Of a DNA stretch of 64,000 nt, positions 54,010 to 57,717 are shown piece by piece (positions within the stretch are counted from its first letter, which is position 1; each line of letters begins with the position of its first letter). The DNA lies in the NCBI RefSeq assembly GCF_002742285.1, contig NZ_MDGM01000012.1, forward strand, positions 372,001-436,000. The letters run 5' to 3'. A program made the translations under genes and the position numbers. The stretch comes from Paramylibacter kogurei. GTDB taxonomy: Bacteria; Pseudomonadota; Alphaproteobacteria; Rhodobacterales; Rhodobacteraceae. Below the pieces are notes generated by a model that was not told where the DNA came from, did no database searches, and saw only the letters and a program-made list of their open reading frames with translations.

Positions 54010-54794
54010 TTACGGGGCGCAATTTATCGCTGGCATTTGGCAATACACAGGTGTTGCGCGGGGCGAATATTGATGTGCCATTGGGCAGATTGGTTGCGAT
54101 CTGTGGCCCCAATGGTGCGGGTAAATCCACGGTGCTTTCTGTTTTGGCGGGTGAGCAGAAACATTATCAGGGTGACGTTTATTTTGGCGATGAAGCATTG
54201 GCGGATTTAACCTCGCGTGATCTGTCGCGCCGCCGCGCAGTGTTGGAACAAAGCCCAAGTCTATCTGCGAATTTTTGCGTTGATGAATTGGTGCGTTTGT
54301 CGATCCCAATGGAATTACCCCCGCGTGATACCGATGTGATGGTGTGCAATATTTTGGATCAACTGGGATTATCGGAATTTGCCAAACGCCGTGTTGATAA
54401 CCTGTCAGGGGGGCAACGTCACCGCGCACATTTGGCGCGTGTCTTGGCACAGGTTTATGCCAATCAAACGCTGTTTGGGGCGGGGTATCTGTTTTTGGAT
54501 GAACCCACGGCCAGTTTGGATATTTTGCACCAGATTGCAGTGATGAAAATCGCAAGGGCGGCGGCGCAAAACGGGGTTGGTGTTTTGGTGGTGTTGCATG
54601 ATTTGAACCTTGCCGCCGCATTTGCCGATGACGTGGTAATGGTAAATCGTGGTGAAACAGTCGCGGCAGGCCCCGTGGGACAAGTATTCGCCAGCAAGCT
54701 TTTGTCCCAGATTTACGAAACCCCGATCAACGTTGATAAACACAGCTCTGGTCGGTTGGTGATTTACCCTGAATTACAGGATTTGGCGGGGTGA
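54006..54794 (+). CDS. hmuV: Heme ABC transporter ATP-binding protein HmuV
   Basis: A 262-residue ATPase. Walker A is GPNGAGKSTVLSVLAG, the signature is NLSGGQRHRAHLARVLAQV, and Walker B is YLFLDEPTASLDI, with the switch histidine in VVLHDLNLA. A short insertion before Walker B (YANQTLFGAGYLF) is usual for HmuV. Its last 21 bases overlap the end of the convergent racemase-family gene. Confidence 0.95.
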   Translation: MITGRNLSLAFGNTQVLRGANIDVPLGRLVAICGPNGAGKSTVLSVLAGEQKHYQGDVYFGDEALADLTSRDLSRRRAVLEQSPSLSANFCVDELVRLSIPMELPPRDTDVMVCNILDQLGLSEFAKRRVDNLSGGQRHRAHLARVLAQVYANQTLFGAGYLFLDEPTASLDILHQIAVMKIARAAAQNGVGVLVVLHDLNLAAAFADDVVMVNRGETVAAGPVGQVFASKLLSQIYETPINVDKHSSGRLVIYPELQDLAG

Positions 54795-55547
54795 TTTCCG
54801 ATTGGATTGATCATGAAACAACCGCCCGGGGCGAAATGCACCAAGGCCAGTGTTGGTCAGTTTCGCCATATGCCAGGCCAAGGCTTGGTTGCTGGAGATC
54901 ACGGGTTTGTTTCCCGCTCGCTCGATCACATCAATTACGTCAAGCGTATCCAAATTCGTACAGGACAAAAACACACCGTCACAGGCTGGATCCGCGCCGA
55001 TATCAATCGCTGCACGGGCGATATCATCGGGGGAAATCCGTGCGACATTTTCATCGAGCGATTCATTAAAGCTTGCGAATTTTGCGGTGGTGATCCCACT
55101 GTTTGACAGCGCGGATTGCAAGGTTGCATTTATCGCCGCGATATAGGGGGACACGAGTGCCAGATTGGTCATGTTCAAATGCCGACAGGCGGCAATCACC
55201 GCCGAGAGCGGATTGGTCACATGTTCGGTGCTACACCCCGATTTGATCGCATCCGCCACACCATCCGTCCCAATTACCGAACTGGCAGAGGTACAGCCAT
55301 ATCCAACCGCACCAAATCGTGTTGCGCGGGGAAACATGGCCGCGGATTTTGGCAACCCTGCCTTCATCGCGTTGAGCGTATCGCGGGTGATCGTATCGGC
55401 ATTGGAAATACGGCTGACCATGATTTTTGTGGTGTCGGGCGAAAACAGGCGCTGGAAATCATGTTCGACCCGTTCATCGGTTTGCAAAACGATCAGGCCA
55501 AGGGTTGAGTGGGGCGGTTCCCTGCGTGTGTATGAATAATTATTCAT
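54774..55547 (-). CDS. Asp/Glu racemase superfamily protein, EutA/maleate isomerase type
   Basis: A 257-residue protein with the two-cysteine active site of the Asp/Glu racemase and maleate isomerase family: Cys85 in GYGCTSASS and Cys196 in FLSCTNLDTLDVI. LGLIVLQTDERVEHDF and SSNQALAWHM are shared with the EutA proteins of hydroxyectoine gene clusters, as I recall them. It is last in a coupled three-gene unit, its ATG overlapping the stop of the M24 gene (ATGA). The substrate is not determined; an isomerase acting on a product of the two other enzymes is a reasonable guess. Confidence 0.8.
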   Translation of the reverse strand: MNNYSYTRREPPHSTLGLIVLQTDERVEHDFQRLFSPDTTKIMVSRISNADTITRDTLNAMKAGLPKSAAMFPRATRFGAVGYGCTSASSVIGTDGVADAIKSGCSTEHVTNPLSAVIAACRHLNMTNLALVSPYIAAINATLQSALSNSGITTAKFASFNESLDENVARISPDDIARAAIDIGADPACDGVFLSCTNLDTLDVIDVIERAGNKPVISSNQALAWHMAKLTNTGLGAFRPGRLFHDQSNRKSPRQIL

Positions 55548-56692
55548 ATCACCACCATATTCGCAGGCGCACGCGGGGATAACATTTCGGCACCCGTTTC
55601 GCGAATGACGATGTTTTCCTCGTGTACCAAGATGCGCCCCTGTGTGGTTTCAATGGATGGTTCCAAGGTTAACACCATTCCGTCCACCAGTGGTAAATTT
55701 TCCGCCGCGATCAACGATGGCCATTCCGTAAGCTGTAGCCCAAGCCCATGGCCAAAACGCCCCGCCTGTGCCGCCTTGCCCCCGCCCGTTACCTTAACCA
55801 TGGCATGGAATACATCGGCGCAGGTGGCGCCGATACGTGCGGTTGCCAGCCCTGCATCCACCGCGTCTTGCAATCTGGAAAATGCGTCGCTGGTTTTGGG
55901 GTCGGGTTTTCCAACACTATAATTGCGATCAAAATCGGCGAAATATCCATCCCAAGTCACCCCAGTATCCAGCATCAAAATATCACCATCTGATAATTCA
56001 CGCGCACTGGGTAGGGATATCACATCGCTGTATCCCGATGGGCCAAGCCCGCTGGCAAGATAGGGCACGCAATCCGCACCCTCGGCCAAACACAGCCTTT
56101 GAAATTCACGACAGACCATATCGTGTGATCGTCCCCTGTGGGCGATTTCAGGAACGCGGGCAAATGCACGCCCTGCAATATCGCAGGCGGTTTTGATTTT
56201 GGCAATTTCGGCGTCTGATTTCACCATACGCAAGGATCGGGTGATATTGGCGTCATCGCCAAACCGATCCGCACCGATGGATGCGATCATGCGGTGATAA
56301 TCATTGAGCGGCATACGCAAATGGGATTCATGCCCTGATGGAATCGCGATACGCCCAGATGGTGCAAATTCGCGCAAAGTTTCACACAGCAATGAAATGC
56401 CATCATCATTCAGATCGGGGGATACCCATGTGCGAATATCATCCACCCAAGTTTGCGCCATCAATTCATGACCAATGCTTGGGATCACCGCCACGGGTTT
56501 GCCGCTGGCAGGGATAATCATAAACCATGGGCGCGATGGGCTTTCCCAGAAACGGGTTTGATACCCGCTGAAATAGGCAAACTCTGGCGCGGTGGTCAGC
56601 AATATCGCGGATATACCGTGATCCGCCATGGCGCGCTGGGCGCGTTTGGTGCGCGATTGATATTCCGAAATGGCAAACCCGCATTGGTTCAT
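55544..56692 (-). CDS. M24 family peptidase, ectoine-hydrolase/Xaa-Pro type
   Basis: A 382-residue protein with a creatinase-like N-terminal domain (TAPEFAYFSGYQTRFWESPSRPWFMIIP) and a pita-bread catalytic domain. The full M24 metal set is visible: D242 in LMLDTG, D253 in ADFDRN, H315 in GRFGHGLGLQLTEWPS, E344 in LTLEPS and a Glu in VHEENIVI. Relatives include proline dipeptidases and the ectoine hydrolase DoeA/EutD. The EutA-like neighbour favours the latter or a related amide hydrolase. It overlaps both neighbours by ATGA. Confidence 0.8.
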   Translation of the reverse strand: MNQCGFAISEYQSRTKRAQRAMADHGISAILLTTAPEFAYFSGYQTRFWESPSRPWFMIIPASGKPVAVIPSIGHELMAQTWVDDIRTWVSPDLNDDGISLLCETLREFAPSGRIAIPSGHESHLRMPLNDYHRMIASIGADRFGDDANITRSLRMVKSDAEIAKIKTACDIAGRAFARVPEIAHRGRSHDMVCREFQRLCLAEGADCVPYLASGLGPSGYSDVISLPSARELSDGDILMLDTGVTWDGYFADFDRNYSVGKPDPKTSDAFSRLQDAVDAGLATARIGATCADVFHAMVKVTGGGKAAQAGRFGHGLGLQLTEWPSLIAAENLPLVDGMVLTLEPSIETTQGRILVHEENIVIRETGAEMLSPRAPANMVVI

Positions 56693-57717
56693 ATATCGCT
56701 ACCTTCGCTCAGGATACATAAAACCCGCGCGGTTTCATCCAAGCCATATTGTCCGATTAATTGCGTTAGCCCCGCATATCCCGCACCCCCTGATGGTGAC
56801 GTTTCCAAATCATGGGCGGGCAAATCTGCGATGGCGTTTACACATTCATCATCTGTGATGGTCATGAAATAATCCGCGTCCAATGACAGACCTTTTAATG
56901 CGATCAAGGATGGTTCCTTGCAATCCAATCGGCCCATATTTGATTCTGCACCTTGGGTTAGCACGCATTTACCTGCGCGGATGCTGTTGATCAGGGCAGG
57001 GGCGCGATCGGGTTCAACCACAATGATGGTTGGGTCATCCCCCCAGATGCGACGCGCATATCGCGCAATTGCCCCTGCCAAGCCACCAACGCCAGCTTGC
57101 AGGAATATATGTGTGGGTGGTGCTGGGATTTGTGCCACGGTTTCCTGTGCCAAAACCGTATATCCCTGCATCAAGCGATGGGGCGCATCGACATAGCCAT
57201 TCCAAGAGCTGTCGGATAATAAAAACCAGTTGTTTTTTTGCGCAGCATCCTGTGCGGCGTCCATGCTAGCCTGATATGTATCCCCTGCACGCACAACCTG
57301 TGCGCCCAGATCAGACAGGCGTTTGGCAAATGATTCTGGAACAGCGTTGGAAATATAGACCACCGATTTTGCACCAAAAATACCTGCACCCGCCGCCACC
57401 GATAACCCGTGATTGCCCGCGCTGGCGGTGACAAACACATGATCGGATATATCGCCAGTGGCCGCCATATGGGCGATGACATAGGCCGCGCCCAATGCCT
57501 TAAAACTGCCCAGCCCCATGCGGGTGCGCTCGTCTTTGATATAAATCGCGCCAAGCCCGTGTCGTTGCGCCAAGGTTGTGCAATCACACAGCGGGGTTTC
57601 GCGATAATCAGGACAGCGTTTTAACAATGCCATTGGGGCGGTGGCATCATCGCTTGGCATTGGAATTTCATCCATTTGGATGCCATCGCCGCGCCATTTG
57701 TTGGGTAATATTTCCAC
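56689..57717 (-). CDS. PLP-dependent lyase resembling diaminopropionate ammonia-lyase
   Basis: A fold-type II PLP enzyme of 342 residues. The GTG at 57717 is preceded by AAAGGA at seven bases; MDEIPMPS 14 codons later is an alternative start. The Schiff-base lysine is K73 in GLGSFKALGAAYV, and the phosphate loop is TASAGNHGLS. HIFLQAGVGGLAGAIARYAR, MGRLDCKEPSLIAL and the late SPSGGAGYAGL look like diaminopropionate ammonia-lyase. The loop SAGNHG rather than DGNHG recalls threonine dehydratases such as EutB. Likely it eliminates ammonia or water from a small amino acid. It is first in the cassette and divergent from the polyol operon. Confidence 0.78.
   Translation of the reverse strand: MEILPNKWRGDGIQMDEIPMPSDDATAPMALLKRCPDYRETPLCDCTTLAQRHGLGAIYIKDERTRMGLGSFKALGAAYVIAHMAATGDISDHVFVTASAGNHGLSVAAGAGIFGAKSVVYISNAVPESFAKRLSDLGAQVVRAGDTYQASMDAAQDAAQKNNWFLLSDSSWNGYVDAPHRLMQGYTVLAQETVAQIPAPPTHIFLQAGVGGLAGAIARYARRIWGDDPTIIVVEPDRAPALINSIRAGKCVLTQGAESNMGRLDCKEPSLIALKGLSLDADYFMTITDDECVNAIADLPAHDLETSPSGGAGYAGLTQLIGQYGLDETARVLCILSEGSDI

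Follow-up and report, generated by a model that had tools for sequence, protein, structure and literature searches.

A 64,000-nucleotide stretch of the Paramylibacter kogurei genome (contig NZ_MDGM01000012.1, positions 372,001 to 436,000; hereafter the window) carries on its minus strand, at 54774-57717, a cassette of three overlapping genes encoding a lyase dependent on pyridoxal 5'-phosphate (PLP), an M24 hydrolase and a EutA-like protein, a three-gene set that is widespread and conserved beyond chance. The cassette is regarded here as a variant of the modules that break down ectoine-type solutes, with a putative substrate, and, tentatively and with rather less than even confidence, as a satellite pathway to the catabolism of ectoine/creatine-type solutes that would act on a small diamino acid blocked by an amide. 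The first gene (56689..57717) starts with GTG and encodes a 342-residue protein (PF00291) assigned to the short (Ala120) clade of the diaminopropionate ammonia-lyase (DAPAL) family, the second (55544..56692) a 382-residue M24 hydrolase of the prolidase/creatinase fold (PF00557 and PF01321), and the third (54774..55547) a 257-residue EutA-like member of the Asp/Glu racemase superfamily (PF17645). An earlier note on this DNA had described three enzymes coupled by two ATGA overlaps, and both junctions were borne out by the open reading frame coordinates: the stop codon of the PLP gene overlaps the M24 start by 4 bases at 56689..56692, and the M24 stop overlaps the EutA-like start by 4 bases at 55544..55547, all on the minus strand.

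Sequence comparisons place the PLP enzyme on the DAPAL side and not with EutB. The window protein scored 270 bits against the DAPAL model NF006058, 6 under the cut-off of 276, as against 57.5 bits for the EutB model TIGR02991, the cut-off of which (413.35) was not reached, and its nearest solved structures were DAPALs (5ygr, E 4.4e-41); a full-length relative (L225) scored 475.4 bits against NF006058, above the cut-off. In a tree of 69 rows, in which long branches were flagged by the tool, four EutB rows and three paralogues from the window's own genome were split from 62 DAPAL-side rows, which include none of the EutB sequences, at 100/100. Genome-wide profile searches of the same assembly returned no EutB or EutC over cut-off (best matches 189 bits against 413 and 117 bits against 472, respectively), so that neither placement inside the EutB clade nor a eutC gene elsewhere, which the earlier note had considered as signs of an ordinary split hydroxyectoine cluster, was found. 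The PLP protein from Amylibacter ulvae (L136) is 88% identical to the window's copy.

Residues K77, Y168, D189, W192 and the GNHG motif of E. coli YgeX are retained in the window protein, while D120 is replaced by Ala. Across an alignment of 198 PLP rows, into which some genomes entered twice, position 120 (E. coli numbering) is Ala in 172, Asp in 21, Thr in 4 (the EutB rows) and Ser in 1, K77 is present in 198/198, Y168 in all 194 non-EutB rows and D189 in 193/194. K77, Y168 and D189 are assumed here to have catalytic-site roles in the E. coli enzyme, and Asp120 is taken to be the second acid/base position, which handles the D isomer. Since this position is Ala in the window protein, the enzyme is probably L-specific. 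The idea that the EutA-like protein makes up for the lost Asp120 by supplying the right isomer was ruled out, because EutA is likewise adjacent to, or clustered with, full-length enzymes that bear Asp120 (L220, L225, L255 and L256).

The second protein, which had been likened to DoeA/EutD, proved to be something else. It scored 48.4 bits against the EutD/DoeA model TIGR02993, far under the cut-off of 613, and is nearest by sequence to dipeptidases (4ege PepE, E 2.1e-36), with DoeA (6twk) matched at E 3.3e-6 only. The residues presumed to be the metal ligands (D242, D255, H315, E344 and E358) form a DDHEE set that is retained in 157/160 aligned M24 rows, the window's included, with two rows reading DNHEE and one gapped, unlike the five DoeA sequences aligned, in which all five positions are replaced; DoeA is taken here to be a metal-free enzyme. 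With the DoeA cut-off so far from being reached and the ligands kept, the M24 protein is predicted to be metal-dependent, and opening of a cyclic amidine appears less likely than amide hydrolysis. The route previously put forward, in which an amide or cyclic amidine is hydrolysed, the product isomerised and ammonia or water eliminated, is thus favoured in its amide form, its cyclic-amidine form being the less likely. The third protein is indeed a relative of EutA, as had been claimed, although at 141 bits it does not reach the TIGR02990 cut-off of 318. Members of the racemase superfamily use two-cysteine chemistry, and both cysteines (C85 and C196) are conserved in 116/123 aligned EutA-like rows, including the window's; the remaining seven have a gap at the second cysteine (six rows) or at both (one row).

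The search for the gene trio across the order Rhodobacterales that the earlier note had proposed covered 292 genomes and found a homologue of the PLP gene, taken alone and at no less than 280 bits, in 116 of them, at 51-100% identity. The surroundings of the PLP gene were then read in two sets of fetched loci, L031-L100 and L136-L215, together 150, all having a PLP match of at least 48% tblastn identity; some genomes occur in both sets (e.g. L070 and L136), some loci are cut by contig ends, and genes were called from codon usage, with the cassette genes as training set and with start codons approximate. Counting only genes downstream of the PLP gene on the same strand, at more than 42% identity for M24 and more than 33% for the EutA-like protein, M24 was found in 130 loci, EutA-like in 91 and both in 87, and an in-frame ATGA is present at 49/130 PLP/M24 junctions and 40/87 M24/EutA junctions. 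Gene content around the cassette varies between loci, and since these surroundings vary around a conserved trio, the three genes seem to move together. Carriers of the whole or part of it outside the family Rhodobacteraceae include a SAR116 metagenome-assembled genome (MAG), Nitratireductor, Roseibium, Ahrensia, Oricola and an Ectothiorhodospiraceae MAG. In the fetched loci with weaker PLP matches (L101-L110), M24 and EutA are for the most part missing.

The tie to ectoine-type catabolism that the earlier note had suspected is real as regards genome context, given a DoeA-M20 pair in the window's own genome and the presence of DoeA, a deacetylase and ABC transporter genes beside the cassette in some relatives. 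The DoeA-type gene of the own genome lies about 137 kb from the cassette (C12:566855-568033; 605.8 bits, cut-off 613), and the M20 gene after it scores over acetylornithine deacetylase cut-offs. A DoeA match at E 1e-120 or better was found in 108/116 genomes with the PLP gene and in 103/176 others (odds ratio 9.6, p 1.5e-11, relatedness being ignored in this as in the proximity statistics). Among the matches listed, the PLP gene and DoeA lie at most 10 kb apart in 6/71 genomes, the PLP gene and a PotD-like ABC binding protein in 16/97, and DoeA and the same binding protein in 31/91; random placement, in a model that likewise ignores relatedness, would give fewer than one for each pair, and many of the near pairs come from few genera. 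One locus (L192) holds PLP-M24-EutA-DoeA-DoeB in a single row, and in L238-L241 the cassette is divergent from DoeA-DoeB or DoeA-M20, these four loci being left out of the unbiased counts given below because they were fetched for DoeA proximity. The PLP gene accompanies 7/49 DoeA matches above 640 bits and 101/162 below, a split chosen after seeing the list.

A creatinase gene, identified by its match to 1chm (E 2.3e-159), recurs in the same neighbourhoods, at a distance of some 8 kb from the PLP gene in a group of 13 genomes, which were picked for closeness and are a description and not a rate, and accompanying the ABC genes in 14/19 loci holding the binding protein. The window's own genome contains a more distant copy of this polyamine-type ABC system (binding protein 49%) and, elsewhere, a creatinase-type gene. 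The ABC system is possibly an uptake system for creatine or ectoine.

Several arrangements were also seen in which these genes are combined differently. The own-genome pair (L237:9347-11694, G000:C12) consists of a DoeA-type M24 just under the cut-off followed by an ArgE-like M20, and a DoeA-M20 pair in place of DoeA-DoeB is present in L238, L240-L243, L246, L259 and L260. The polyamine-type transporter with creatinase (L253:12995-19231 and relatives) stands beside DoeA in some genomes, G051, G002, G250 and G106 among them. In G128 (L245:10504-12296), M24 and EutA lie beside DoeA-M20 and ABC genes, with no PLP gene called adjacent.

Fuller versions of the operon were found in a number of lineages. 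Several loci have a regulator of the Lrp/AsnC type divergent from the PLP gene. In L103-L106 the PLP gene belongs to a second short subclade and has an M20 deacylase after it; the one M20 scanned (L106) is a DoeB2 relative at 302 bits (cut-off 550). The abgB amidohydrolase of Gram-positive ectoine clusters is presumably an M20 enzyme as well. All four enzymes stand together in L194, in the order PLP-M20-M24-EutA that the Ectothiorhodospiraceae MAG shows, and L108 has the PLP gene divergent from Lrp-M20-M24-EutA. Members of these families are also found together with another PLP subfamily and in altered order: a plasmid of Aliiroseovarius crassostreae carries M20-DAPAL-M24-EutA, with a full-length DAPAL, next to Lrp, and a plasmid of Roseovarius pelagicus carries M20, a full-length DAPAL (475 bits, cut-off 276), M24, EutA and Lrp, along with an Ehu-like ABC transporter that has an EhuB-like binding protein (178.5 bits, EhuB cut-off 190.9). 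Such a transporter and sarcosine-oxidase-like genes are added both in R. pelagicus and in Aminobacter sp. SR38, and the other binding protein scanned from these transporters likewise fell just short of the EhuB cut-off, at 187.6 bits. The region concerned on SR38 plasmid pSR3 (L217, L218) straddles the start of the plasmid record and contains two EutA relatives, two M24 genes, two M20-type genes and one DAPAL together with the Ehu-like ABC transporter, sarcosine oxidase and Rieske genes.

Given the DoeA, creatinase and transporter neighbours, the cassette is placed among the catabolism of nitrogen-rich solutes, and a possible sequence of reactions can be proposed from the protein families, retained residues and gene order, the versions with four enzymes being treated as complete. 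The M24 enzyme, metal-dependent by its ligands, would hydrolyse an amide and so free an amino acid, a task that the DoeB2-related M20 deacylase would share in the fuller versions and that the ArgE-like M20 beside DoeA could share in the window's genome. The EutA-like enzyme would then invert a stereocentre by two-cysteine chemistry, and the DAPAL-like enzyme would eliminate an amino or hydroxyl group from the beta position, yielding a 2-oxo acid together with ammonia. The putative substrate of the lyase may be either 2,3-diaminopropionate or 3-hydroxy-2,4-diaminobutyrate. A stronger version of this scheme, in which the cassette serves a dedicated marine pathway for an unrecognised 2,3-diaminopropionate-based solute, either ectoine-like or an acyl-conjugated lower homologue, is considered improbable; such a pathway would comprise uptake by an Ehu-like or polyamine-type ABC transporter, release by M24 and M20, inversion by the EutA relative and cleavage by DAPAL, and would extend across roseobacters, SAR116 and relatives among the rhizobia, the lyase alone being left in SAR11.

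The main alternative to a satellite pathway is that the cassette replaces EutABC in hydroxyectoine breakdown, which is considered rather unlikely but is kept as a rival because DoeA adjoins the cassette in some loci. Under this explanation, DoeA and a deacetylase would yield 3-hydroxy-2,4-diaminobutyrate, the EutA-like protein would set its stereochemistry, the DAPAL-like enzyme would eliminate the hydroxyl and M24 would be a helper hydrolase. The L192 row and the divergent L238-L241 arrangements are consistent with it, as are the co-occurrence of DoeA with the PLP gene, the combination of DoeA-M20 with no EutB or EutC over cut-off in the own genome, and the role otherwise proposed for EutA in hydroxyectoine clusters (PMC5924519). 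However, the PLP enzyme is not a EutB, in one genome (G103) a stretch of about 10 kb contains EutB, EutC, DoeA and M20 as well as the cassette, and a full-length-DAPAL version (Lrp-DAPAL-M24-EutA) occurs in a genome (G005) with no DoeA match at E 1e-120. Further, the PLP gene and EutC do not avoid each other: among 211 genomes bearing DoeA, and leaving out three EutC matches of about 297-312 bits (G030, G090 and G106), EutC is present in 27/108 with the PLP gene and 29/103 without. This lack of avoidance argues against simple replacement of EutABC, and the distribution does not support a plain stand-in for EutBC.

Two other explanations receive less weight. Scavenging of dipeptides or D-amino acids, with M24 as a prolidase, the EutA-like protein as an amino-acid racemase and the PLP enzyme as a serine/threonine-type dehydratase, would fit the similarity of M24 to dipeptidases with its metal set retained, and the Ala before GNH in the PLP enzyme presumably resembles that of L-serine/threonine dehydratases. 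The sequence and active-site residues of the PLP enzyme are nevertheless DAPAL-like, and the recurrent neighbours that could be identified, among many that carry no identification, are solute-specific catabolic genes, making this improbable. That three unrelated enzymes merely share a transcript is very improbable. The PLP gene alone in SAR11, the EutA gene mostly missing beside it in Roseovarius loci and the varying gene content around the cassette would all be accommodated, but M24 lies downstream in 130/150 loci in spite of those variable surroundings, and the same families recur with another PLP subfamily and in other orders.

Several observations weigh against a satellite pathway of ectoine/creatine-type catabolism itself. 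The partners of the PLP gene were checked in the fetched loci only, and within these the trio is not always together, 20/150 lacking M24 and 59/150 lacking EutA downstream, with SAR11 and contig ends included. Ten loci of SAR11 (Pelagibacteraceae; L195, L200, L201, L203, L204, L206, L209, L210, L214 and L215), some on short contigs, have the PLP gene with no M24 or EutA nearby, and a search of the ten genomes (0.8-1.3 Mb, of unstated completeness) with the window's M24, EutA not being searched there, gave only weak matches of at most 35.5 bits in 9/10. A DoeA match at threshold is missing in 8/116 PLP-bearing genomes and is missing in G005, the association is counted over related genomes, and among loci fetched regardless of DoeA it lies near the cassette in only 2/70 (L052 and L076) and, in a second unbiased set, 4/80 (L157, L190, L192 and L193). 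In the window, no Lrp, M20 or transporter gene of this kind was found adjoining the three genes.

Four systems offer the closest comparisons. YgeX (DAPAL, EC 4.3.1.15; E. coli and Salmonella) is of the same family as the window's lyase and has Lys77, Tyr168, Asp189, Trp192 and GNHG in common with it, but has 398 residues against 342, has Asp120 where the window protein has Ala, and belongs with uric-acid genes of a kind not beside the window's cassette. In the reductive uric acid pathway YgeW-YgeY-YgeX, the M20 hydrolase YgeY releases diaminopropionate for YgeX (PMC12507026), a precedent for the fuller cassette versions in which an M20 enzyme would feed a DAPAL, although that is an anaerobic purine route and, in the portion of the article available, no M24 or EutA is among its enzymes. 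The eutABC-doeAB cluster with ehu/ueh transporters resembles the cassette in having a EutA relative and an Lrp/AsnC regulator, which often adjoins the cassette, and in the DoeA, DoeB or M20 and ABC genes of some relatives; it differs in that the cassette's PLP enzyme is not EutB, there is no EutC, M24 is not DoeA, and such neighbours were not found beside the window's copy. EutABC has been proposed to remove the hydroxyl of hydroxyectoine, with no biochemical proof as of 2018 according to the passages available in PMC5924519 and PMC13188858. The nearest published hint found is in PMC13188858, where the putative ectoine clusters described from Thermodesulfobacteriota and from Gram-positive bacteria include an additional eutD homologue (M24) next to genes of the ectoine type and, in Gram-positive bacteria, the amidohydrolase gene abgB; EutB and EutC are named there, and the word 'diaminopropionate' is absent from the main text. 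Judged by titles and the beginnings of abstracts, none of the papers listed by searches of the open-licence PubMed Central (PMC) literature describes this gene set, and no paper in it combined 'diaminopropionate ammonia-lyase' with 'EutA'.

Marine Alphaproteobacteria recycle nitrogen-rich plankton solutes and possess many catabolic genes for which no substrate is known. A lyase gene that is common, is often accompanied by both partners, is tied in some lineages to DoeA, creatinase and ABC genes and also occurs in SAR11 points to a common compound, of whose breakdown no description was found in the same literature, and the cassette provides a tangible way into the unsettled question of what EutA does.

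Among the ten flanking genes scanned, clear matches came from 49-54.8 kb, where a TonB receptor of heme type and ABC genes of iron/heme/B12 type lie; the ABC genes beyond 58 kb gave one weak match only, of sugar type, and, in keeping with the absences first reported, neither EutC nor a deacetylase nor an uptake gene of the ectoine kind was among the ten. In the PLP tree, the three SAR11 rows included group with L197, an uncultured Amylibacter, and with a member of the window's genus (G063), and not with the window's copy, which suggests that the lyase may have been transferred between SAR11 and Amylibacter-type lineages.

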